Position numbers and translations under genes: made by a program. Shown here piece after piece: positions 1 through 29,837 of a DNA stretch of 64,000 nucleotides. The notes under the pieces were generated by a model that was not told the DNA's origin, did not search any database, and saw nothing but the letters and a program-made list of their open reading frames with translations. Positions within the stretch are counted from its first letter, which is position 1. Each line of letters begins with the position of its first letter. The DNA is from Mesorhizobium sp. YIM 152430 (GTDB taxonomy: Bacteria; Pseudomonadota; Alphaproteobacteria; Rhizobiales; Rhizobiaceae), in NCBI RefSeq assembly GCF_029210365.1, contig NZ_JARGES010000025.1, forward strand, positions 1 to 64,000, given 5' to 3'.

Positions 1-440
1 GGCTCCAGTCGCGCTTTTTTTCGGTCTCGCGCTTGTCGTGCAGCTTCTTGCCGCGTGCCAGGCCGAAAAGCAGCTTCGCGCGGCCCTTTTCGTTGAAGTA
101 GATCTTCAACGGGACCATCGTCATGCCTTCGCGCTCGACGCCCTGCTTCAAGCGCGCCATCTCCTTCTTCTTCAGGAGAAGCTTTCGGCGGCGGCGCGGC
201 TCGTGGTTGAAGCGGTTGCCTTGCGTATATTCGGGAATGTACGAGTTGATCAGCCAGATCTCGCCGCCTTCGGCGGACGCATAGGATTCGCCGATATTCG
301 CCTGGCCCTCACGCAGCGATTTCACCTCCGTACCCGTCAGCGACAGGCCGGCCTCGTAGGTGTCGGTCACCTCGAAGGAAAACCGTGCCTTGCGGTTTTC
401 GGCGACCAGCTTGGAATTGTTGTCCTTGTCCTTGCTCATG
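1..440 (-). CDS. smpB: SsrA-binding protein SmpB (3' end cut by window edge)
   Basis: SmpB binds tmRNA and brings it to stalled ribosomes for trans-translation in the cytoplasm. The ATG at 440 opens a frame of 146 complete codons that runs off the left edge. SmpB is usually about 155-160 residues, so only the basic C-terminal tail is missing. Visible family signatures are the N-terminal [10 protein letters not shown] strand, the [11 protein letters not shown] loop, the basic stretch [10 protein letters not shown] and the conserved [13 protein letters not shown] segment. It lies 24 bp downstream of dapA on the same strand, the usual rhizobial dapA-smpB order, and is probably cotranscribed with it. 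Identification is secure; the C-terminus is not visible. Confidence 0.96.
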
Positions 441-464
441 AATCGGCAACGCAAAAAGCAGGCA

Positions 465-1346
465 TCAGTTCATCAGCCCGGCATGGATCATGGCCGCATC
501 GATCGCCTTCGCCGTCGATTCCTCGACGGTGACGAGCGGCATCCGCACGACATTTTGAACCCTGCCGAGACGCGACAGCGCGTATTTGGCGCCGGTGACG
601 CCGGCCTCGATGAAGATCGCCTTGTGCAGCGGCATCAGCCTGTCCTGCAATTCGATCGCGCGCTCGCGGTCGCCGGCGAGCGAGGCGCGCTGGAATTCGG
701 CGCAGAGACGCGGTGCGATGTTGGAGGTGACCGAGATCGCCCCCTGCCCGCCATGCGCGTTGAAACCAAGCGCGGATGCGTCCTCGCCGGAAAGCTGGAT
801 GAAATCCGGCCCGCAGGTGATGCGCTGCTCGGAGACACGCTCGATCTTCGCCGTCGCGTCCTTGACCCCGACGATGTTCGAAAAGTCCTTCGCCAGCCGT
901 CCCATCGTCTCGGGCGTCATGTCAATTACCGAGCGCGGCGGGATGTTGTAGATGATGACGGGCAGCTTCACCGCCTTCGCCACCTCGGCGAAATGGGCAT
1001 AGAGCCCGCGCTGGTTCGGCTTGTTGTAATAGGGCGTCACGACCAGCACGGCATCCGCGCCCGTCGTCTCGGCGAACTTCGCCAGTTCCACGGCCTCCGT
1101 GGTCGCGTTCGATCCCGCACCGGCGATCACCGGCACGCGGCCGGCCGCGACCTCGACGCAGATCTCGACGACCCGGCGATGTTCCTCATGGCTGAGCGTC
1201 GGTGATTCACCCGTCGTTCCGACCGGAACCAGCCCGTTCGTTCCCTCCGCAATCTGCCACTCTACCAAGCTGCGAAAGGCTTTCTCGTCCAGGGCGCCGT
1301 CCTTGGTGAACGGGGTCACGAGCGCGGTCATCGAACCTGTGAACAT
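465..1346 (-). CDS. dapA: 4-hydroxy-tetrahydrodipicolinate synthase DapA
   Basis: DapA condenses pyruvate with aspartate semialdehyde in the first committed step of the diaminopimelate/lysine pathway. The protein of 293 residues is a standard-length TIM barrel. The pyruvate-binding motif GTTGES lies at about residues 43-48, the catalytic Tyr is Y133 (YNIPPRS), Y107 supports it, and the Schiff-base lysine is K162 in GVKDA. The open frame extends further upstream to 1511, but that extension is unlike DapA; the ATG at 1346, giving [13 protein letters not shown], matches the family start. It is divergent from the lytic transglycosylase gene, leaving about 250 bp for promoters. It is upstream of smpB in a probable operon. 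Confidence 0.95.
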
Positions 1347-1597: not shown

Positions 1598-3694
1598 ATG
1601 CAGGCAAAACTCAGGACCCGCGTCGCGCTTACCGGCTTGACCCTCGCCCTTGTTCCAGGGCTCGCGTTTGCCAATCCGGTACTGCCCTCCAATCCGCCGA
1701 TTCCCGGCCAGCGGCCCTATCAGGCAGCGGCCAGCGGCGTCGACAATGCCTTCACGACCGGCTCGGTCGTGGCGCAGTCGGCCGCGGCGATGGCGACCGA
1801 ACTCGTCGTGACCGGCGATGTTTCCAAGCTGAAAGCCGGTCTCGACGCCCTGCAATCGGGCAATATCTCCCGCGCGCGCCTGACGCGCGACAACCTGCCG
1901 TCGAATTCGCTGGACCGCCAGATTCTTGCCTGGGCGATCGCCACCAGCGGCGCGGACGGTGTGCCTTCGGGTGAAATCGCGCAGGCCGCATTCGCGCTCA
2001 AGGGCTGGCCCGGCATGTCGCGTCTGCGCGCCAATTCCGAGCGCGCGCTGCTGCGCGAAAATCCCGGCCCGCAAGGTGTCCTGCGTGCCTTCGGCGATAC
2101 GCAGCCCGAAACGCCCGAAGGCATCATCGCGCTGACCCGCGCGCATCTGGCGGTCGGCAATACGCAGGCCGCGAAAACCGTTCTTGCGCCCTATTGGCGC
2201 AACGAGCGCATCGAGCCGCGCGAAGAGGCGGCGATGGTGCGCGAATTCGGACGTCTGCTCACTGCGGCCGACCACTGGCACCGCATGGAACGGATGCTCC
2301 ACATCGACCGGATCACTTCGGCCGAGCGCGTTGCGGGGCTCGCAGGCGGCGAGGCGCTAACGCGTGCCTGGGCCGCCGTCATCCGCGGCGAATCCAGCGC
2401 CGGAAAACTTCTCGCCGCCGTGCCGCAGGCGCAGCGCAAGGCCGGATTCTACTTCGCGCAGGCACGCCATCTTCGCCGTGCCGAGCGCTACAAGGAAGCG
2501 GCGCAAGTCGTTCTTCAGGCGCCGAAGGACGCCGCTTCCCTCGTCAATGCCGATGCGTGGTGGATCGAGCGGCGCGTCCTGTCGCGAGAACTGATCGACA
2601 TCGGCGAGAACCGACTCGCCTATCAGGTCGCGGCCGCTCAGCCCGCCGAAAGCCCGGCCAATTCGGTGGACGCGGAATTCCATGCCGGCTGGTACGCGCT
2701 GCGCTTCCTCAACGACGCGGCAACGGCAAGCCGCCATTTTGCCCGTATCGTCCAGATCGCCGAAGGGCCGATCTCGCTGTCGCGCGGCCATTACTGGCTC
2801 GGCCGCGCCGCGGACGCCGGCGGTCCGGGCAATGCGCGCGACCACTACCAGCGTGCGGCGCGCTACGGCACCGCCTTCTACGGCCAGCTTGCCGCCGCGA
2901 AGCTCGGCGCGACGACGATCTCGGCCAGCTTCCCGTCTCCGACCGATGCCGACCGCCGCAATTTCGAGGGGCGCCAGGCGGTGCAGGCGATCCGCCGCCT
3001 CGAGCGCGCCGGCCACCAGGGCCGGGCGAACACGCTTTACCGCGATCTGGCGCTGCAACTCGACAGCATCGGAGAACTGGCCCTGCTCGCCGTCATGGCC
3101 GAGCGGCGCGGCGACCATCCGCTGGCGCTGCGCGTCGGCAAGTGGGCGGCCGGCCGCGGCCTCGACGTCGGCGCGCTCGCCCATCCGGTCGGCGCCATTC
3201 CGGGCAATGCCAACATCTCGGCCGCCGGAAAGGCGCTCGCCTATGCCATTGCCCGGCAGGAGAGCGAGTTCAACATTTCCGCCCGCTCCGGCGCAGGCGC
3301 GCTCGGCATCCTGCAATTGCTGCCCGGAACGGCCCGCGACATGGCGCGCAAGGTCGGCGTTTCCTACGATCAGGCGCGCCTGACCCGTGACGCCGGATAC
3401 AATGCCGCGCTCGGCGCCGCCTATCTCGGCGAACAACTCGACCGCTTCAATGGCTCCTATATCCTGACTTTCGCCGGATACAATGCCGGCCCGAACCGTG
3501 CCGCCCAGTGGGTCGGCCGCTATGGCGATCCGCGCGGCCAGAACATCGATGCCGTGGTGGACTGGATTGAGCGCATCCCGTTCCACGAGACGCGCTCCTA
3601 CGTGCAGCGGGTTATGGAAAATTATCAGGTCTACAAGATGCGCCTTTCGGGGCGAACCGACGTGGTTGCCGATCTGGTCGGCGGACGTCGCTGA
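1598..3694 (+). CDS. Soluble lytic murein transglycosylase (Slt70-like)
   Basis: This periplasmic enzyme cleaves the MurNAc-GlcNAc bond of peptidoglycan, leaving 1,6-anhydroMurNAc ends. The 698-residue protein starts with a Sec signal peptide, probably cleaved after LAFA (residue 25). A long alpha-helical superhelical region covers about residues 60-540, and a C-terminal SLT lysozyme-like domain covers about 545-690. The catalytic glutamate is E555 in ARQESEFN, followed by GALGILQLLPGTA and AGYNAGPNRA, both typical of family 1 transglycosylases. The ATG at 1598 follows a weak purine-rich site. A strong terminator begins 24 bp after the stop. It is divergent from dapA, a neighbourhood seen in many Rhizobiales. 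Confidence 0.93.
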   Translation: MQAKLRTRVALTGLTLALVPGLAFANPVLPSNPPIPGQRPYQAAASGVDNAFTTGSVVAQSAAAMATELVVTGDVSKLKAGLDALQSGNISRARLTRDNLPSNSLDRQILAWAIATSGADGVPSGEIAQAAFALKGWPGMSRLRANSERALLRENPGPQGVLRAFGDTQPETPEGIIALTRAHLAVGNTQAAKTVLAPYWRNERIEPREEAAMVREFGRLLTAADHWHRMERMLHIDRITSAERVAGLAGGEALTRAWAAVIRGESSAGKLLAAVPQAQRKAGFYFAQARHLRRAERYKEAAQVVLQAPKDAASLVNADAWWIERRVLSRELIDIGENRLAYQVAAAQPAESPANSVDAEFHAGWYALRFLNDAATASRHFARIVQIAEGPISLSRGHYWLGRAADAGGPGNARDHYQRAARYGTAFYGQLAAAKLGATTISASFPSPTDADRRNFEGRQAVQAIRRLERAGHQGRANTLYRDLALQLDSIGELALLAVMAERRGDHPLALRVGKWAAGRGLDVGALAHPVGAIPGNANISAAGKALAYAIARQESEFNISARSGAGALGILQLLPGTARDMARKVGVSYDQARLTRDAGYNAALGAAYLGEQLDRFNGSYILTFAGYNAGPNRAAQWVGRYGDPRGQNIDAVVDWIERIPFHETRSYVQRVMENYQVYKMRLSGRTDVVADLVGGRR

Positions 3695-7484: not shown

Positions 7485-9506
7485 ATGAGCGACGTGGCAT
7501 TCGGTGGCGCCGGCCAGCCGCAAGGCATTCACGACGACGGCAAGGTCACTATCTTCGATTTCGCCGCACTGCTGCGCACGCTGCGTCGCCGGCTCTTGTG
7601 GATCGCCGTTCCGACGGTCGCCTTTCCGGTTCTCGCCGCAGCGGTGTCGCTTGCGATTCCCAACTATTACTGGGCGAGCGCGCAGGTGCTCGTCGACCCG
7701 GAAGGTATGCAGGTTCTGGAAGGCGAACTCGCCACCAACGGTCGCTCGGAGCAGACCGCTCTCATCTACGCGCAGAACCAAGCCTACATCATGGGCTCGA
7801 ACCGGGTTCTGATGGAAGTCATCGAGCGCGAAGGACTGGCGCGCGACGAGGAATTCGGCGTTCCGCCTCCCGGCTTTCTTGCGTCGTTCTTCCCGGCTTC
7901 GTCCAGCGCCGTGCCGCCGGAGCGGATCGCGCTTCGCGCATTGCAGCGCAATTTCAACGTGACGCTCAACGAGGCGAGCTTCGTCGTGGAAGCATCCGTA
8001 AAGTCGAAAGACCCGCAAAAAGCAGCCCGCCTCGCCAACGCGATTGCCCAGACCTATGTCGAGCGACGCGCCGACACGCGCGCGGAAGCGGTGGGCCGTG
8101 CGGCGGATGGCCTCTCGGCCCAGCTCGACCGGCTGCGCGAGCGCGTGGAAGACGGCGAACGCGCCGTTCAGGCCTACAAGGTCGCCAACAACATCATCGA
8201 TGCCGATGGCCGGCGCATCGGCGAGCAGCGACTGGCGGACATCACGACCGAGATCACACGCGTCGGAGCGCGGATCGCCGAGGACGAGGCTCTGGCGGCG
8301 GAGGTCGCGCGGCTGCGCGCGGATTCAAGTTCGTTCGGTTCGGTCGCCGAAACCAATCTGACGCCCGCGATCGTGACGCTTCGCGCGCGTTTGACCGAGG
8401 CGCGGGAGGAGGAGGAAACGCTCGCCTCGTCGCTCGGCGCGCGCCATCCCTCCTACCAGCTTGCCCGCACGCGTTCCCAGTCGGTCAGCCGTCAACTCGA
8501 TGCGGAACTCGACCGCTTCGCTCAATCCGTCGGCCAGCGGCTCGCCCGCTCGCGCGCCAATCTCGCCAGCCTCGAAGCCCAGCTTGCAGCGGCCGGCGCA
8601 ACGGTCACGGCCGAAAACCAGTCGAGCGTCGAGTTGCGCCAGCTCGAACGCACCGCCGCCAGCGACCGGCTCGTCTACGAGGCGTTCCTGCTGCGTACGC
8701 GCCAGCTTTCCGAACAGGAACAGGCGGTCAATCCGGAAAACCCGCAGATCATCGCCGCAGCGCTCGCACCGCTCGAAAAGGCCGGTCCACCGCGCACCAT
8801 GATGACAGGCGGCGCGCTCGCCTTCGGTTTCCTCTTCGGGGTCGGCCTCGCCATGCTGCGCGAACAGTTCGACCAGACAGGAGCCACGACCGTCCAGCGC
8901 CGCTCCCCTTCCCGCGCGGCAGCGCCGCCCGTCTTCCGTCTCGCCCGCCCGACCCGGACGGATGACGAGATGGCGCTTCTTGCGACGCGCGGCCAGGCGC
9001 CGGCCTTCTTCGAGATCGCCGGGCTGATCGGCCGTGTGCCCACCGCCGGCCCCGTCGCCTGTATCGCCATCACCGGCAAGGACGCGGACGACCGCGCATT
9101 CGCCGCGCTGAACACCACGATCGCCGCCGCCAAGACCGGCCGCAAAGTGCTGCTGGTCGATGCGTCCCGATCGGACAACCCGCTGACCGCCGCCTTCGGG
9201 CTCGAACGTCATCCCGGATTGAACGACGTCCGTTCGTTGCGCCGCTTCGAGCCCGAATTTGCGCTGGCCGTCGATGCGGCCGGCTTCTCCTTCCTGCCAC
9301 GTGGGCTCAACGCCATCGGCGCCAGCGACACGCAAAGCGATCTCGATATTGCCGGCTGGGTCGGCACATCCGGCCAGGCTTTCGATCTCGTGATCGTCGA
9401 CACGGCACCGGGCGAAGCGATCCGTCACGACGGGGCGATCGCCATAGGCGACAACGCCACTCCCGTCGGCCCGGCACCGCTCCTCGCCAGGATCGTGCGG
9501 GGCTGA
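7485..9506 (+). CDS. Wzz/ExoP-like polysaccharide co-polymerase with degenerate tyrosine-kinase domain
   Basis: This 673-residue inner-membrane protein probably controls chain length in exopolysaccharide assembly. It has a Wzz domain with a first membrane segment at about residues 38-58, a long periplasmic coiled-coil and GNVR-like region (about 190-430), a second membrane segment at about 438-458, and a cytoplasmic BY-kinase-like domain (about 520-673). The cytoplasmic domain keeps a Walker A'-like VLLVDASR and a Walker B-like LVIVDTAPG. Its P-loop reads TGKDADDRAF instead of the usual GxGKS/T form, and the C-terminus has no tyrosine cluster. It is therefore probably not an active kinase. 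It opens the cluster; the next gene starts 4 bp later. Confidence 0.88.
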   Translation: MSDVAFGGAGQPQGIHDDGKVTIFDFAALLRTLRRRLLWIAVPTVAFPVLAAAVSLAIPNYYWASAQVLVDPEGMQVLEGELATNGRSEQTALIYAQNQAYIMGSNRVLMEVIEREGLARDEEFGVPPPGFLASFFPASSSAVPPERIALRALQRNFNVTLNEASFVVEASVKSKDPQKAARLANAIAQTYVERRADTRAEAVGRAADGLSAQLDRLRERVEDGERAVQAYKVANNIIDADGRRIGEQRLADITTEITRVGARIAEDEALAAEVARLRADSSSFGSVAETNLTPAIVTLRARLTEAREEEETLASSLGARHPSYQLARTRSQSVSRQLDAELDRFAQSVGQRLARSRANLASLEAQLAAAGATVTAENQSSVELRQLERTAASDRLVYEAFLLRTRQLSEQEQAVNPENPQIIAAALAPLEKAGPPRTMMTGGALAFGFLFGVGLAMLREQFDQTGATTVQRRSPSRAAAPPVFRLARPTRTDDEMALLATRGQAPAFFEIAGLIGRVPTAGPVACIAITGKDADDRAFAALNTTIAAAKTGRKVLLVDASRSDNPLTAAFGLERHPGLNDVRSLRRFEPEFALAVDAAGFSFLPRGLNAIGASDTQSDLDIAGWVGTSGQAFDLVIVDTAPGEAIRHDGAIAIGDNATPVGPAPLLARIVRG

Positions 9507-26661: not shown

Positions 26662-26895
26662 TCAGTTGGTGGCGAGATCGGCGAAAAGGGCGCGAAGCCT
26701 CGCCGGCCCCTCGCCTTTCGCTTCGCTGGCATCGATTCGGCTGACCTCCCGCGCGGCGGCTTGCTGCCGGTCTGCTTCTGCCGGGAGCCACATGAGCCAG
26801 GCGAGAAACACTTCCTCGGGCTCGGGTTGGCGCGGCTTGAAGAGCGCCGGACGTGAGGGTGCCGGCGTCAGGCCGTATTGACGTGCCTGTCCCAT
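26662..26895 (-). CDS. Small hypothetical protein at the end of the gbcA-gbcB-like operon
   Basis: This 77-residue protein is not recognised. It starts with ATG at 26895, one base after the reductase stop, which suggests translational coupling. Visible features are PSRPALFKPRQPEPEEVFLA, a short hydrophobic patch (FLAWLMWLP) and a charged helical tail. There is no signal peptide or cysteine motif. Its stop shares the six-base palindrome TGATCA with the convergent aminotransferase. That tight fit at both ends supports a real gene. It may be an accessory to the oxygenase/reductase pair; this is inference. Confidence 0.6.
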   Translation of the reverse strand: MGQARQYGLTPAPSRPALFKPRQPEPEEVFLAWLMWLPAEADRQQAAAREVSRIDASEAKGEGPARLRALFADLATN

Positions 26896-26896
26896 C

Positions 26897-27985
26897 CTAC
26901 GCCTCCACCGTGACGGGGCCGAGCGGGCGCGAGCAGCAGGCAAGGATGTAGCCTTCCTCGATTTCGTGGTCGAGAATGCCGCCATTGTGGCTCATATCCA
27001 CCTTGCCGGAAGTCTTCATGGTCTTGCAGGTGCCGCAAAGGCCGAACTCGCAGGCTGCGGGTATGCGGATGCCGGCCGCGCGGGCGGTCTGGAGTACGGT
27101 CTGGCCCGGAAGACACAGCGCCTCGACATCGGAGAGCGCAAAGCGCACCGGCTGGGCGTCTGCCGGCGGTTCGGCGGCGATTTCTTCCTCGAACGGTGCC
27201 TGAATGCGCTCGATCGCCGGCGCGCCGAAGCTTTCCTGATGGTAATGCGCCATGTCGAATCCGGCCGATTCCAGCATCTCCCGCACCGCGCGCATGAAGG
27301 GGTCGGGACCGCAGCAGAAGATCTCACGCTCGCGGAAATCAGGTGCCAGCAGCGGAAGTCGCACCGCGTCGATGCGGCCCATATGGCCGAACCAGCTCTC
27401 CCGGCTCGACCGTTCCTCGATCAGGAAGCCGAGCGACAGGCCGGGCATGTGGGCGCCCAGGAGTTCGAGTTCCTTTCGGAAGATGATCTCTTCCGGCCGG
27501 CGCGCGCAGTTGACGAAGGCGACATCGGTCTGCGGCGTGAAATCGTTCAGCCAGCGCAGCATCGACATCATCGGCGTGATGCCCGAACCGGCGGAGATGA
27601 AGAGATATTTCGCTGCCGGGTGGTTGTGCAGCGAGAAGGTGCCGGAGGGGCCAAAGGCGCGGATGTGGTCGCCGGGCTTGAGATTGTCGAACATCCAGCG
27701 CGTGCCGAGGGAATCCTTCTGCGCCTTGACCGTGACGGCGATGGAAAAGGGTCGCGAGGGGCTGGAGGACAAAGTGTAGGTGCGCATCAGCGGGTCGGGT
27801 GTGGCCGGCAGTTCCAGTGTGATGAACTGGCCGGGCTGGTAGCGGAACCAGGTCTGGCTGTCGGAGCGGAAGGTGAAGGTCTTGACGTCGGGGGCTTCGT
27901 CGACGACCCGCAGGCATTCGAGCACCTGAAGCCGGTCGTCCCAGGGAGTCATTTCGTCGAGATATTTGTAGAGGTGGGCGGTCAT
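26897..27985 (-). CDS. GbcB-like flavin/2Fe-2S reductase of a Rieske monooxygenase
   Basis: This 362-residue reductase passes electrons from NAD(P)H to a Rieske oxygenase. It has a flavin-binding domain with the RTYTLSSSP motif, an NAD-binding domain with SAGSGITPMMSMLR and FCCGPDPFMRAV, and a C-terminal plant-type 2Fe-2S ferredoxin domain with CEFGLCGTCK and a fourth cysteine in ILACCSRP. This hybrid order matches GbcB of glycine betaine demethylation. The ATG at 27985 was chosen over the upstream in-frame start because it begins the flavin domain. The gbcA-like gene lies upstream across a 148-bp repeat. It probably serves the Rieske subunit and may act on other quaternary amines. Confidence 0.88.
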   Translation of the reverse strand: MTAHLYKYLDEMTPWDDRLQVLECLRVVDEAPDVKTFTFRSDSQTWFRYQPGQFITLELPATPDPLMRTYTLSSSPSRPFSIAVTVKAQKDSLGTRWMFDNLKPGDHIRAFGPSGTFSLHNHPAAKYLFISAGSGITPMMSMLRWLNDFTPQTDVAFVNCARRPEEIIFRKELELLGAHMPGLSLGFLIEERSSRESWFGHMGRIDAVRLPLLAPDFREREIFCCGPDPFMRAVREMLESAGFDMAHYHQESFGAPAIERIQAPFEEEIAAEPPADAQPVRFALSDVEALCLPGQTVLQTARAAGIRIPAACEFGLCGTCKTMKTSGKVDMSHNGGILDHEIEEGYILACCSRPLGPVTVEA

Positions 27986-28018
27986 TGACGTTGATCCTGG
28001 AGGTCGAGTCTTGACGAG

Positions 28019-28166
28019 CCCCCCTCTGTCCTGCCGGACATCTCCCCCGCGCGGGAGGAGATCACGCGGTGTCGATGACGAGAATAATCTCCCCACTTGC
28101 GGGGGGTCCGAAGGACGGGCCGAGACCCGCGGCTCGGGTCAGAGCGGGCGGCAGCCCAGAGGGGGG
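28019..28166. repeat. Intergenic palindromic repeat between the oxygenase and reductase genes
   Basis: This 148-bp element is bounded by a perfect 10-bp inverted repeat, CCCCCCTCTG at 28019-28028 and CAGAGGGGGG at 28157-28166. Inside are further self-complementary stretches, including GTCC-TGCC-GGAC and a GC-rich hairpin near 28110-28140. Its style matches the C-rich intergenic repeats common in Mesorhizobium-like genomes. It could fold into a long structured RNA and alter expression of the downstream reductase gene. I see no second full copy in this window. Confidence 0.7.
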
Positions 28167-28190
28167 CAACATAGAGCATGGTCGTATCCC

Positions 28191-29438
28191 TCAAGCCACC
28201 GACCGCAGCGCCGGCTTGGCGTCGCCTGTCAGCCGTTCCTCGGCAAACCGGCAGTACCAGTCCACGAACTGCATGACGCCGCCTTCGTGCTCTTCAGAAT
28301 ACGGCCCAGGCTGGTAGGCAGGCGAGGCGATGCCGAAGGCGTTTTCCTCGACGATGCGGCGGTCCTGGTCGTTGGTTTCGGTCCAGACATGGGTCAGTTC
28401 CGCAAGGTCGTAGTCGACGCCCTCGACGGCATCCTTGTGGACGAGCCATTTGGTCGTCACCGCCGTCTGCGTCGCGCTGATCGGCAGGACACGGAAGGTG
28501 ACGGCGTGGTCGCCGAGAACGTGGTTCCAGGTCGTCGGATAGTGGAAAAGCAGGAGCGAGCCGATGCGGTCGGTGGTGACGGTGTCGGACAGGTTCTTCT
28601 TCACCGCGCGCTTGCCCGTCATCGTGTAGCTGACGGCATCACGCAGGAGCGGCACGCGGGTGACCCGGTGCTGGCCGGTCTCGGCGAGCTCAAAGCGGGA
28701 CGGCAGGCCCGCCGCTGCGCACTTCTGCCAATGCGCGACTATCTCCGGGTCGCTCTCGGCGGCCTGGACGCCGGTGACGGTCGGCGCTTCGGGGAAGGTC
28801 TTGCAAAGCTCGGGATGGTTGCCCGCGCAGTGATAGCACTCGCGGTTGTTTTCCCAGACGAGTTTCCAGTTGCCCTTTTCGACGATGGTCGATTCGAAGG
28901 CGACCTTCGTTTCCGTCAGCCGGTGTGGCGCGAGATAGGGCTCGACCTGCGCGCGGAAGGGGGCGAAATCGGCGGGCGCGTCGGCAAGGCAGATGAAGAG
29001 GTAGCCGGCGACGCTTTCGCAGGCTACGGGCTTCAGGCCGAACTGCGAGGCATCGAAATCCGCACCCATCTGGCGGGCGAAGACGAGACGGCCGTCGAGA
29101 TCGTAGGTCCACTGGTGATACGGGCAGACGAGTTTGGCCGCCGTTCCCTTAGCGGCCGTGCAGACCCGCGAGCCGCGATGGCGGCAGGTGTTGTGGAAGG
29201 CGCGGATCGCGCCCTTGGCGTCGCGCACCACGACGACGGGATAGTCGCCGATCTGCACGGTGAAATAGCTGCCGGGCTTCGGCAATTCGCAGTCATGGCC
29301 GATGAAAAGCCAGTCGCGATACCAGATCAGGTCGAGATCGAGCCGGTAGAACTGCGGGTCGATGTAGAACACTTGGTCGAGGCTGTAGCCGGGTTTGCGG
29401 CGCTGGAGCCGGGCCAGCATTTCGTTGCGCGCATCCAT
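28191..29438 (-). CDS. GbcA-like Rieske oxygenase (glycine betaine monooxygenase-type)
   Basis: This 415-residue alpha subunit of a Rieske non-heme iron oxygenase has the 2Fe-2S ligands C85, H87 (CRHRG), C105 and H108 (CPYHQW). The mononuclear iron histidines H203 and H208 lie in NNRECYHCAGNHPE; this NNRECYHC form is typical of GbcA/Stc2-type N-demethylases. The paired GbcB-like reductase downstream supports demethylation of glycine betaine or a related quaternary amine such as stachydrine or carnitine, giving formaldehyde and the demethylated product. The ATG at 29438 was chosen because GGCAGGACAGGAC precedes it; an ATG at 29456 is possible. A cobalamin riboswitch lies about 127 bp upstream on the same strand. 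Confidence 0.88.
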   Translation of the reverse strand: MDARNEMLARLQRRKPGYSLDQVFYIDPQFYRLDLDLIWYRDWLFIGHDCELPKPGSYFTVQIGDYPVVVVRDAKGAIRAFHNTCRHRGSRVCTAAKGTAAKLVCPYHQWTYDLDGRLVFARQMGADFDASQFGLKPVACESVAGYLFICLADAPADFAPFRAQVEPYLAPHRLTETKVAFESTIVEKGNWKLVWENNRECYHCAGNHPELCKTFPEAPTVTGVQAAESDPEIVAHWQKCAAAGLPSRFELAETGQHRVTRVPLLRDAVSYTMTGKRAVKKNLSDTVTTDRIGSLLLFHYPTTWNHVLGDHAVTFRVLPISATQTAVTTKWLVHKDAVEGVDYDLAELTHVWTETNDQDRRIVEENAFGIASPAYQPGPYSEEHEGGVMQFVDWYCRFAEERLTGDAKPALRSVA

Positions 29439-29564
29439 GTCCTGTCCTGCCTTCATGCAAGGACTGAACTGGTGGAGATTTCGAAGGAGAAGGCCGCGAC
29501 GGCAAAATGACCGCGCGCGCATCCGCCCCTTGACCGCCCACCGCGATCAGTCGGTTTGTCGAGA

Positions 29565-29749
29565 TTCAGGCTGGTTTCCGGGCTCAAGAGCCGGTCTTCG
29601 GATCGCTCCATCGACCTGTCGCAACACCTTCCCAGGCACAATGCCCAGTGGCTCCCGTTGCGACCTCACTCCATTTACCGTTGCGGGGGCAGCGCCGGCT
29701 TTTCACCGGCTTCCCAATTCTCCGCCTCGATCAGAAGGCGGCACCTGAA
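29565..29749 (-). promoter_or_regulatory. Cobalamin (AdoCbl) riboswitch
   Basis: Read on the minus strand, this 185-nt element has the whole conserved core. It begins with a P1 half TTCAGG (29744-29749 on plus) that pairs with CCTGAA at its end. Then come GGGAAGCCGGTG, GCTGCCCCCGCAACGGTAA, GCCACTGGGC, GCCTGGGAAGGTG and CCGAAGACCGGC. The B12 box AGCCCGGAAACCAGCCTG is at 29567-29584. It lies between the end of purD and the start of the Rieske oxygenase gene and reads toward the latter. About 125 nt separate it from the ATG. I see no clear intrinsic terminator there, so control may be at translation. The rest of this 399-bp gap holds no gene. Confidence 0.95.
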
Positions 29750-29837
29750 CTGACTGCATTCAAGCATTCGCGCGAGGCTTCTGGAAGCTGGAATGCGACA
29801 TGGGATGAGCATGGGGCGACGCGCTGAAAAATCGACG

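Follow-up and report, generated by a model that had tools for sequence, protein, structure and literature searches.

A cobalamin riboswitch before a GbcAB-type Rieske N-demethylase operon in Mesorhizobium, and its co-occurrence with the cobalamin-dependent demethylase family PF06253

Why should a cobalamin riboswitch stand before an operon for a Rieske N-demethylase? The question is raised by a 64,000-nucleotide stretch of Mesorhizobium sp. YIM 152430 (contig NZ_JARGES010000025.1, positions 1 to 64,000; hereafter the window), in which a riboswitch on the minus strand reads into a gene for a GbcA-like Rieske oxygenase and then into that for its reductase. The answer favored here, with a probability of about 0.78, is that gbcAB is a B12-independent backup, or isozyme, of the cobalamin-dependent betaine demethylase MtgBCD and is translationally repressed by B12. 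Part of the evidence is co-occurrence: the B12-dependent counterpart, family PF06253, is encoded in 90 of the 90 scored genomes with a riboswitch before gbcA. The features of the locus are as follows.

29552–29763, minus strand: cobalamin riboswitch aptamer (RF00174; cmscan, 115.4 bits, full length)
29531–29549, minus strand: hairpin TGATCGC[GGTGG]GCGGTCA directly behind the aptamer (motif-led search)
29440–29470, minus strand: predicted hairpin pairing the Shine-Dalgarno stretch AGGAC(A) with an upstream GTCCT, the probable expression platform (fold prediction)
28191–29438, minus strand: GbcA-like Rieske oxygenase, 415 aa (Pfam/NCBIfam and structure-sequence matches)
26897–27985, minus strand: GbcB-like ferredoxin/flavin reductase, 362 aa from the ATG at 27985 (Pfam/NCBIfam)
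26662–26895, minus strand: conserved small protein of 77 aa, the operon's last of three genes (homologues follow gbcB in relatives)

The element and the operon behind it

The sequence-only reading of this DNA had described a complete cobalamin riboswitch upstream of a GbcA-like gene and reading toward it, and had proposed a scan with the Rfam cobalamin model. In that scan (Rfam cmscan of the window), RF00174 was matched over its full length (model positions 1–189) with an E value of 3.2e-28, the score lying far above the gathering threshold of 31.5 bits. R1, a covariance model trained on the leaders of 14 gbcA genes with the window's own among them, scored the element at 148.1 bits (29564–29749). 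The invariant core GCCACTG...GGGAAGG was found in the aptamer, and the stretch at 29567–29584, AGCCCGGAAACCAGCCTG, fits the B12-box consensus. Score, B12 box, and core together confirm membership of RF00174. The element is, to judge by its sequence, an ordinary cobalamin riboswitch with an unusual target, the Rieske N-demethylase operon formed by gbcA, gbcB, and the gene for the 77-aa protein. The conserved start of the oxygenase is the ATG at 29438, as alignments of the 415-aa frame with close relatives begin at its first residue; a longer frame to 29522 exists and is unneeded. This ATG lies 127 nt from 29565, in agreement with the distance of about 127 bp given by the sequence-only reading.

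The names GbcA and GbcB, also given by that reading, hold as best NCBIfam matches and by domain content, and not at the level of the equivalog cut-offs. The oxygenase has Rieske and Ring_hydroxyl_A domains and matches GbcA (NF058607) best, at 538 bits against a cut-off of 670; the reductase has FAD_binding_6, NAD_binding_1, and Fer2 domains and matches GbcB best, at 375 bits against a cut-off of 500. Domain order, reductase partner, and these best matches are shared with the GbcAB of Pseudomonas and Chromohalobacter (cited in the available text of PMC12478193). Unlike GbcAB proper, the window proteins fall below the cut-offs, and the loci above the GbcA cut-off (L119–L127) form a separate clade on the GbcA tree and carry no riboswitch. 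The oxygenase is 59% identical over 395 aa to a protein of Sinorhizobium meliloti 1021 pSymA (locus L153), and its best solved structures are PDB 3vca and 4qup; protein and structures alike represent the stachydrine demethylase Stc2. The Stc2-type protein has the same domain architecture and nests in the same wider GbcA clade. Unlike the window protein, it sits on another branch, and its locus has no riboswitch. At the residues that separate Stc2 from GbcA, the window oxygenase is GbcA-like at 12 sites and Stc2-like at 14, a division that points clearly to neither substrate. Since the score is below the cut-off and Stc2 shares the wider clade, the name GbcA is best regarded as approximate for this protein.

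Distribution of the riboswitch and of PF06253

The sequence-only reading had let its proposal depend on conservation of the element before gbcA in relatives, and this was found. A scan of GTDB genome contigs yielded at least 593 named loci, of which the best 80 were kept; an R1 search placed a riboswitch directly before gbcA in 59 of these 80 (R1 scores 116–175 bits), a decayed copy in one (L092), and none in 20. Nineteen of the 20 riboswitch-less named loci and seven order-sample loci, L010 included, were searched again at E 10 with no hit before gbcA; the twentieth, L088, is the same gene as L010 and likewise has no riboswitch. Further copies came from the second order discussed below and from 150 genomes sampled evenly across the order, in which the riboswitch precedes gbcA in L005, L006, L007, L009, L011, L012, L013, and L016 and is lacking in L008, L010, L014, L015, L017, L018, and L019 as well as in 14 more distant loci (L020–L033). 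L254 and L255 were riboswitch-less on scanning; in all counts L169 (49.6 bits) is scored as bearing the riboswitch and the decayed L092 as lacking it. Plasmid records with the arrangement include Phaeobacter gallaeciensis (L152), Cereibacter azotoformans (L154), S. meliloti pSymB (L150, L157), and Shinella (L156). Since neither purD nor the HisC-like gene, the operon's neighbors in the window, was found at any of the 95 other loci examined (of which 15 span only about 4.2 kb), it is the operon and its leader that are conserved, not the neighborhood; a link of the riboswitch to either neighbor was rejected on the same count.

Additional cobalamin riboswitches were seen near a few copies. A second one in L012 (813–1017, minus strand) points away from gbcA to a 113-aa frame (ORF 380–721, minus strand) without a Pfam match, followed by a frame that is LysR-like by eye only; L223 has two more, at 322–488 (minus strand) and 3363–3538 (plus strand), on either side of the riboswitch-gbcA unit; and a second, divergent copy was seen in both L176 and L177.

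In Ruegeria pomeroyi, glycine betaine is demethylated by a cobalamin-dependent system of the PF06253-type MtgB with MtgC and MtgD, described in 2025, and the system has been inferred for further aerobes, S. meliloti and Hyphomicrobiales among them (available text of PMC12478193). Both enzyme families, the Rieske GbcA type and the PF06253 type, demethylate quaternary amines. If gbcAB is a B12-independent spare for MtgBCD, the riboswitch is expected only where PF06253 occurs. The first set comprised 40 named loci chosen by riboswitch status, with 39 genomes scored (L069 left out): PF06253 was present in 24 of 24 riboswitch-bearing genomes and in none of the 15 without an intact copy, the genome of the decayed L092 among them. 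The second set of 54 genomes covered the 39 named loci left once L059 (identical with G069) is set aside and 15 order-sample genomes including G069, G023 being the genome of L088 and counted in the first set; here PF06253 was present in 41/41 riboswitch-bearing genomes and 0/13 others. The third set took 62 of 244 second-order genomes, those with a GbcA-like gene at E ≤ 1e-90, together with G321, G336, and G409. All 23 riboswitch-bearing genomes of the second order encode PF06253, and none of the 13 without PF06253 has the riboswitch; G336 and G409 have both, G321 neither. The second order (that of G348) is probably Rhodobacterales, since on the tree its proteins are interspersed with named ones of Phaeobacter and Cereibacter. 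With duplicates removed and the window's genome added, the 157 genomes divide into 90 with both, 0 with the riboswitch only, 26 with PF06253 only, and 41 with neither (L129 and L057, with identical proteins and matching PF06253 coordinates, count as one genome; L256, from G544, its gene cut by a contig end and no riboswitch upstream, is among the 26). A riboswitch before gbcA thus implies PF06253 in the genome, with no exception in that direction.

General use of B12 does not account for this pattern. RF00174 copies occur in all 39 first-set genomes (2–11 each), including the 15 without an intact gbcA riboswitch (2–7 each; the decayed one may be among the three of G178), and MetH is found in 15/15 of the latter, in two of them in pieces, and above the cut-off in 37 of 40 genomes searched. 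Canonical MetE (about 500 bits) occurs in 8/24 riboswitch-bearing genomes vs 3/15 without an intact copy, and was rejected as the partner that decides the riboswitch. Separate MtgC-like pieces are present in all 24 riboswitch-bearing first-set genomes (broken in two in G159), with MtgD- and MtgE-like pieces in most; in the 15 without an intact copy, besides MetH, nothing exceeded 52 bits among the matches listed. The element therefore tracks the cobalamin-dependent betaine demethylase, not general B12 use: because MetH and RF00174 copies remain, absence of the riboswitch goes with a missing Mtg system, not with missing B12 use.

These data also bear on the reason for the switch offered by the sequence-only reading, that GbcAB is raised at low B12 to supply glycine as a source of 5-aminolevulinate for making new corrinoids. 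In its favor, glycine is the precursor of 5-aminolevulinate in Alphaproteobacteria. Cobalamin riboswitches, moreover, often control corrinoid synthesis (available text of PMC3766115). Yet no genome without PF06253 has an intact gbcA element, although the 15 such genomes of the first set all keep RF00174 copies and MetH, and the genes that adjoin the operon in some relatives, nrdAB and metE, are isozymes and not corrinoid genes. The glycine rationale was rejected because the distribution follows PF06253, and it appears scarcely credible. The simplest reading is a category that the sequence-only reading had itself named third, the B12-independent isozyme, and had left unapplied at this locus.

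Predicted switch mode and gene neighborhoods

The hairpin at 29531–29549 is presumably the P13/L13 regulatory hairpin, the probable partner of the CCCCCGC loop of the aptamer. A motif-led search without shuffled control gave a loop of GGNGG or GGGNG behind the aptamer for 89 of 94 leaders, and the 94 together show 28 different stems; L072 and L169, which lack a clear aptamer end, stand outside these analyses. For the second hairpin, fold prediction gave the window's Shine-Dalgarno stretch a pairing probability of 0.83, vs 0.59 with the upstream part shuffled. Among 188 of 197 leaders (excluded were those with a Shine-Dalgarno run of fewer than 3 bases, with N, or too short), mean pairing was 0.72 vs 0.56 shuffled in riboswitch-bearing leaders, 77/96 exceeding their shuffles, and 0.41 vs 0.43 in riboswitch-less leaders, 43/92 exceeding theirs, kinship being ignored in both comparisons. 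In predicted folds, then, a hairpin covering the Shine-Dalgarno site is enriched in riboswitch-bearing leaders only, and for this reason a translational OFF switch is the likely mode. Such a hairpin agrees with the expectation of the sequence-only reading that the operon should rise at low B12. Base complementarity of the P4 loop to the leader did not stand out from controls (4.19 vs 4.20 shuffled; 3.74 vs 3.56 swapped, swap maximum 3.82), and a sigma-70 promoter scan gave 0 sites.

The window's genome (G000, 99.8% complete) encodes five PF06253 proteins. One of them has as neighbors an MtgC-like protein, a DUF1638 protein, an MtgD-like protein of pterin-binding type, and a corrinoid activase of the RACo type; the gene for an MtgE-like protein, which scores 559 bits as NCBIfam betaine-homocysteine methyltransferase, is on another contig. 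In the same genome neither a full-length MetH nor a canonical MetE was found, the latter being represented only by a 46-bit match to the MetE C-terminal domain. The genome has two cobalamin riboswitches besides the one before gbcA, the first in front of a class I nrdA and the second in front of a gene for a btuB-type receptor; each of these genes was seen in part. An Rfam PYLIS_3 match of 56 bits lies in one of the PF06253 gene regions of this genome (L118, 1863–1962, minus strand); since the PF06253 frame has no internal stop, the match probably reflects mere similarity to mttB and not pyrrolysine decoding.

Nearest to the window, at 84%, is L037 (Mesorhizobium sp. J18). In L037 and L065 a riboswitch, nrdA, and nrdB are followed by a riboswitch, gbcA, and gbcB, and facing them stand a riboswitch and metE, so that three apparently B12-independent enzymes each have a riboswitch of their own. 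A gene for nrdA, nrdB, metE, metH, or a btuB-like receptor lies within the locus (mostly 13 kb) in 9 of the 59 riboswitch-bearing named loci (L035, L036, L037, L061, L065, L067, L070, L071, L097) and in none of the 21 others. On the C. azotoformans plasmid pORIO2 (L154), typed as conjugative, the riboswitch-gbcAB unit adjoins metH and a homocysteine S-methyltransferase gene, with cbiQ further on.

It has to be asked whether GbcAB is instead raised at low B12 for methionine or one-carbon metabolism, with formaldehyde or formate derived from the methyl groups entering the folate pool, or with betaine being cleared as MtgBCDE stalls. The Mtg core also serves methionine synthesis, MtgCDE doubling as a methionine synthase (available text of PMC12478193), and a methionine link, which the sequence-only reading had touched on, is for this reason nearer than one through glycine. 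In the window's genome, with its separate MtgC-, MtgD-, and MtgE-type proteins and without a full MetH or canonical MetE, MtgBCDE is the only type of methionine synthase found, and gbcAB lies near metH or metE in L035, L036, L037, L065, L097, and L154. Most genomes, however, would be independent of MtgBCDE for methionine, as MetH is present in 37/40, and MetE does not track the riboswitch. A methionine role as the reason for the switch is unlikely, and the B12-independent isozyme is the simpler reading.

Other neighborhoods speak to the substrate. In Labrys (L070) the operon runs on into fdhA, for a glutathione-independent formaldehyde dehydrogenase (714 bits). Relatives at 72% and 63% adjoin fdhA and genes for a BCCT transporter or a glycine betaine ABC transporter. 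Among riboswitch-less copies, Paracoccus L149 and L155 have a cluster with a GlxA-type regulator, fdhA, a BCCT transporter, ETF, and folD; Agrobacterium 1D1609 (L151) has fdhA and a glycine betaine ABC transporter; and Sphingomonas (L077) has folD and an FAD-GcvT dehydrogenase. The neighbors in L093, L095, and L099 (4, 2, and 3 proteins) gave no betaine-catabolic hint. Overall, the betaine-catabolic neighborhoods of relatives support glycine betaine as the substrate, and they suggest that some riboswitch-less copies may use substrate-responsive regulators instead.

The remaining features of the operon can be noted briefly. The reductase ATG begins 205 nt past the oxygenase stop, and the gap (27986–28190) contains palindromes rich in G+C (CCCCGCAAGTGGGG and the like) which to the eye resemble an intergenic repeat; the gap is shorter in many relatives. 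The downstream GbcB-like reductase and 77-aa protein of the sequence-only reading were both recovered, the one by its domains and the other by homologues behind gbcB in some relatives. The 77-aa frame itself has no Pfam or NCBIfam match. Its homologues (motif around PEEVFLAWLMWLP..AD) lie behind gbcB in about a dozen relatives and behind fdhA in L070. In L097 a gene of this type (8378–8749) stands alone under a strong cobalamin riboswitch of its own (8772–8954, minus strand), downstream of metH, and in L036 a homologue (711–875) follows directly on an nrdB match, a long way from gbcA. The family may be considered a putative small B12-regulated protein.

The isozyme reading weighed, and its meaning

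Under the isozyme reading, when cobalamin is plentiful the riboswitch would bind it and the hairpin would hide the gbcA ribosome-binding site, with MtgB, MtgC, and MtgD stripping the methyl groups of betaine onto tetrahydrofolate and, via MtgE, on to methionine. When cobalamin is scarce, MtgBCD would stall, the riboswitch would open, and GbcAB would demethylate betaine with O2 and NAD(P)H, releasing formaldehyde. In this scheme gbcAB would be to MtgBCD what metE is to metH and nrdAB to nrdJ. We infer that the element binds its ligand, that it switches in this direction, and that the two systems share a substrate, most likely glycine betaine. A broader proposal, to which we incline with less assurance, is that cobalamin, acting through the riboswitch, sets the fate of betaine methyl groups in Hyphomicrobiales and Rhodobacterales, toward methyl-tetrahydrofolate and methionine (MtgBCDE) when B12 is present and toward formaldehyde (GbcAB) when it is not, and that the riboswitch would be selected only while the cobalamin-dependent system exists.

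Shared descent could mimic such a pairing. The riboswitch might be a passenger that came down with the operon or was acquired from a nearby nrdA or btuB riboswitch, with no specific tie to betaine demethylation; the pairing does span related genera, riboswitch-bearing neighbors do exist, and independent changes are few. These changes were counted on a tree of 196 GbcA-like proteins (L059, L088, and L183, copies of L005, L010, and L135, and also L256 are off the tree), using the 161 rows for which both traits are known and setting aside 35 that lack PF06253 data; the minimum is 15 changes for the riboswitch and 16 for PF06253. Among independent pairs across well-supported branches, choosing by riboswitch first gave 9 pairs, with averages of 5.3 in agreement, 0 in conflict, and 3.7 without a PF06253 difference (median sign-test p 0.06); choosing by PF06253 first gave 12 pairs, with 5.5 agreeing, 0 disagreeing, and 6.5 without a difference in the second trait (median p 0.03). 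Against a passenger stand the retention of the riboswitch in changing neighborhoods, shown by the absence of purD and the HisC-like gene elsewhere, the lack of an intact riboswitch in all 41 PF06253-less genomes, and its decay where PF06253 is gone. The last is seen in L092 (Rhizobium sp. Leaf371), in which the gbcA riboswitch scores 57.9 bits with Rfam and 84 bits with R1; much of the front half of the aptamer is kept, and the CCACTG...GGGAAGG core and several invariant bases are lost. Its genome (G178) has no PF06253, and its sister on the tree, L081, has neither riboswitch nor PF06253; the nearby L080, L083, L086, and L087 have an intact riboswitch and PF06253. A mere passenger is thus very unlikely.

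Several points nevertheless weigh against the isozyme reading. The association rests on few independent events, about 5–6 concordant and 0 discordant, with relatedness judged on a GbcA tree rather than a species tree. In the closest clade (90 rows, 67 with both and 23 with neither), 4 of 4 pairs agree, too few to reach 0.05, and the other 71 rows taken alone, with 1.6 of 5 pairs agreeing (median p 0.5), lend no support. The rule is also one-way, as the riboswitch is lacking in 26 second-order genomes that carry PF06253 together with a GbcA-like gene. PF06253 is a superfamily, and the MtgB may be any of the five such proteins that the window's genome encodes. With the GbcA score short of its cut-off and Stc2 in the wider clade, the substrate could be another betaine. 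Among the 20 named riboswitch-less loci, 11 have no gbcB match, so that some of these copies may have changed function. As to the leader, the comparisons with shuffled and riboswitch-less leaders ignore relatedness, and the window leader as a whole folds no better than shuffled sequence (z 0.26).

The regulatory kind proposed is a known one, and what would be new is the enzyme pair. Isozymes of B12-dependent enzymes are a known target class of cobalamin riboswitches (available texts of PMC3766115 and PMC2211319); the words Rieske, dioxygenase, and betaine are absent from the main text of both, and the gbcAB pair, unlike metE and nrdAB, is not named there in the isozyme class. Of three S. meliloti cobalamin riboswitches in the available text of PMC2573895, none precedes a gene named as of Rieske or betaine type. 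PMC12478193 names GbcAB as an alternative route, the word riboswitch appearing in its available text only in a reference title, and the riboswitch-gbcA link is not described in the available texts of that paper, PMC5948670, PMC8123684, PMC4465626, or PMC5317091. More broadly, no published description of the link was found in the literature searched, which comprised available texts, with supplements and older subscription papers on B12 elements lying outside it. Like riboswitch-metE and riboswitch-nrdAB, with which it stands side by side in L037 and L065, the arrangement places an RF00174 aptamer in the leader of an enzyme with a B12-dependent counterpart. Unlike them, it would pair a Rieske demethylase with a corrinoid methyltransferase, catabolic enzymes of unrelated chemistry, the one oxidizing to formaldehyde and the other transferring a methyl group. 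MtgBCDE, of which the window's genome encodes proteins of each type, is proposed to catalyze the same first step as GbcAB, betaine to dimethylglycine; unlike GbcAB, it needs cobalamin and yields methyl-tetrahydrofolate without formaldehyde.

If the isozyme reading is true, a catabolic enzyme pair would join the list of B12-dependent and B12-independent isozymes. The riboswitch may also serve as a marker, in that a genome with this element in front of a Rieske demethylase is predicted to encode an MttB-type enzyme as well. The finding thereby proposes what aerobic betaine-demethylating cells would do once B12 runs out, and it bears on rhizobia and marine roseobacters that use plant and algal betaines under B12 limitation.

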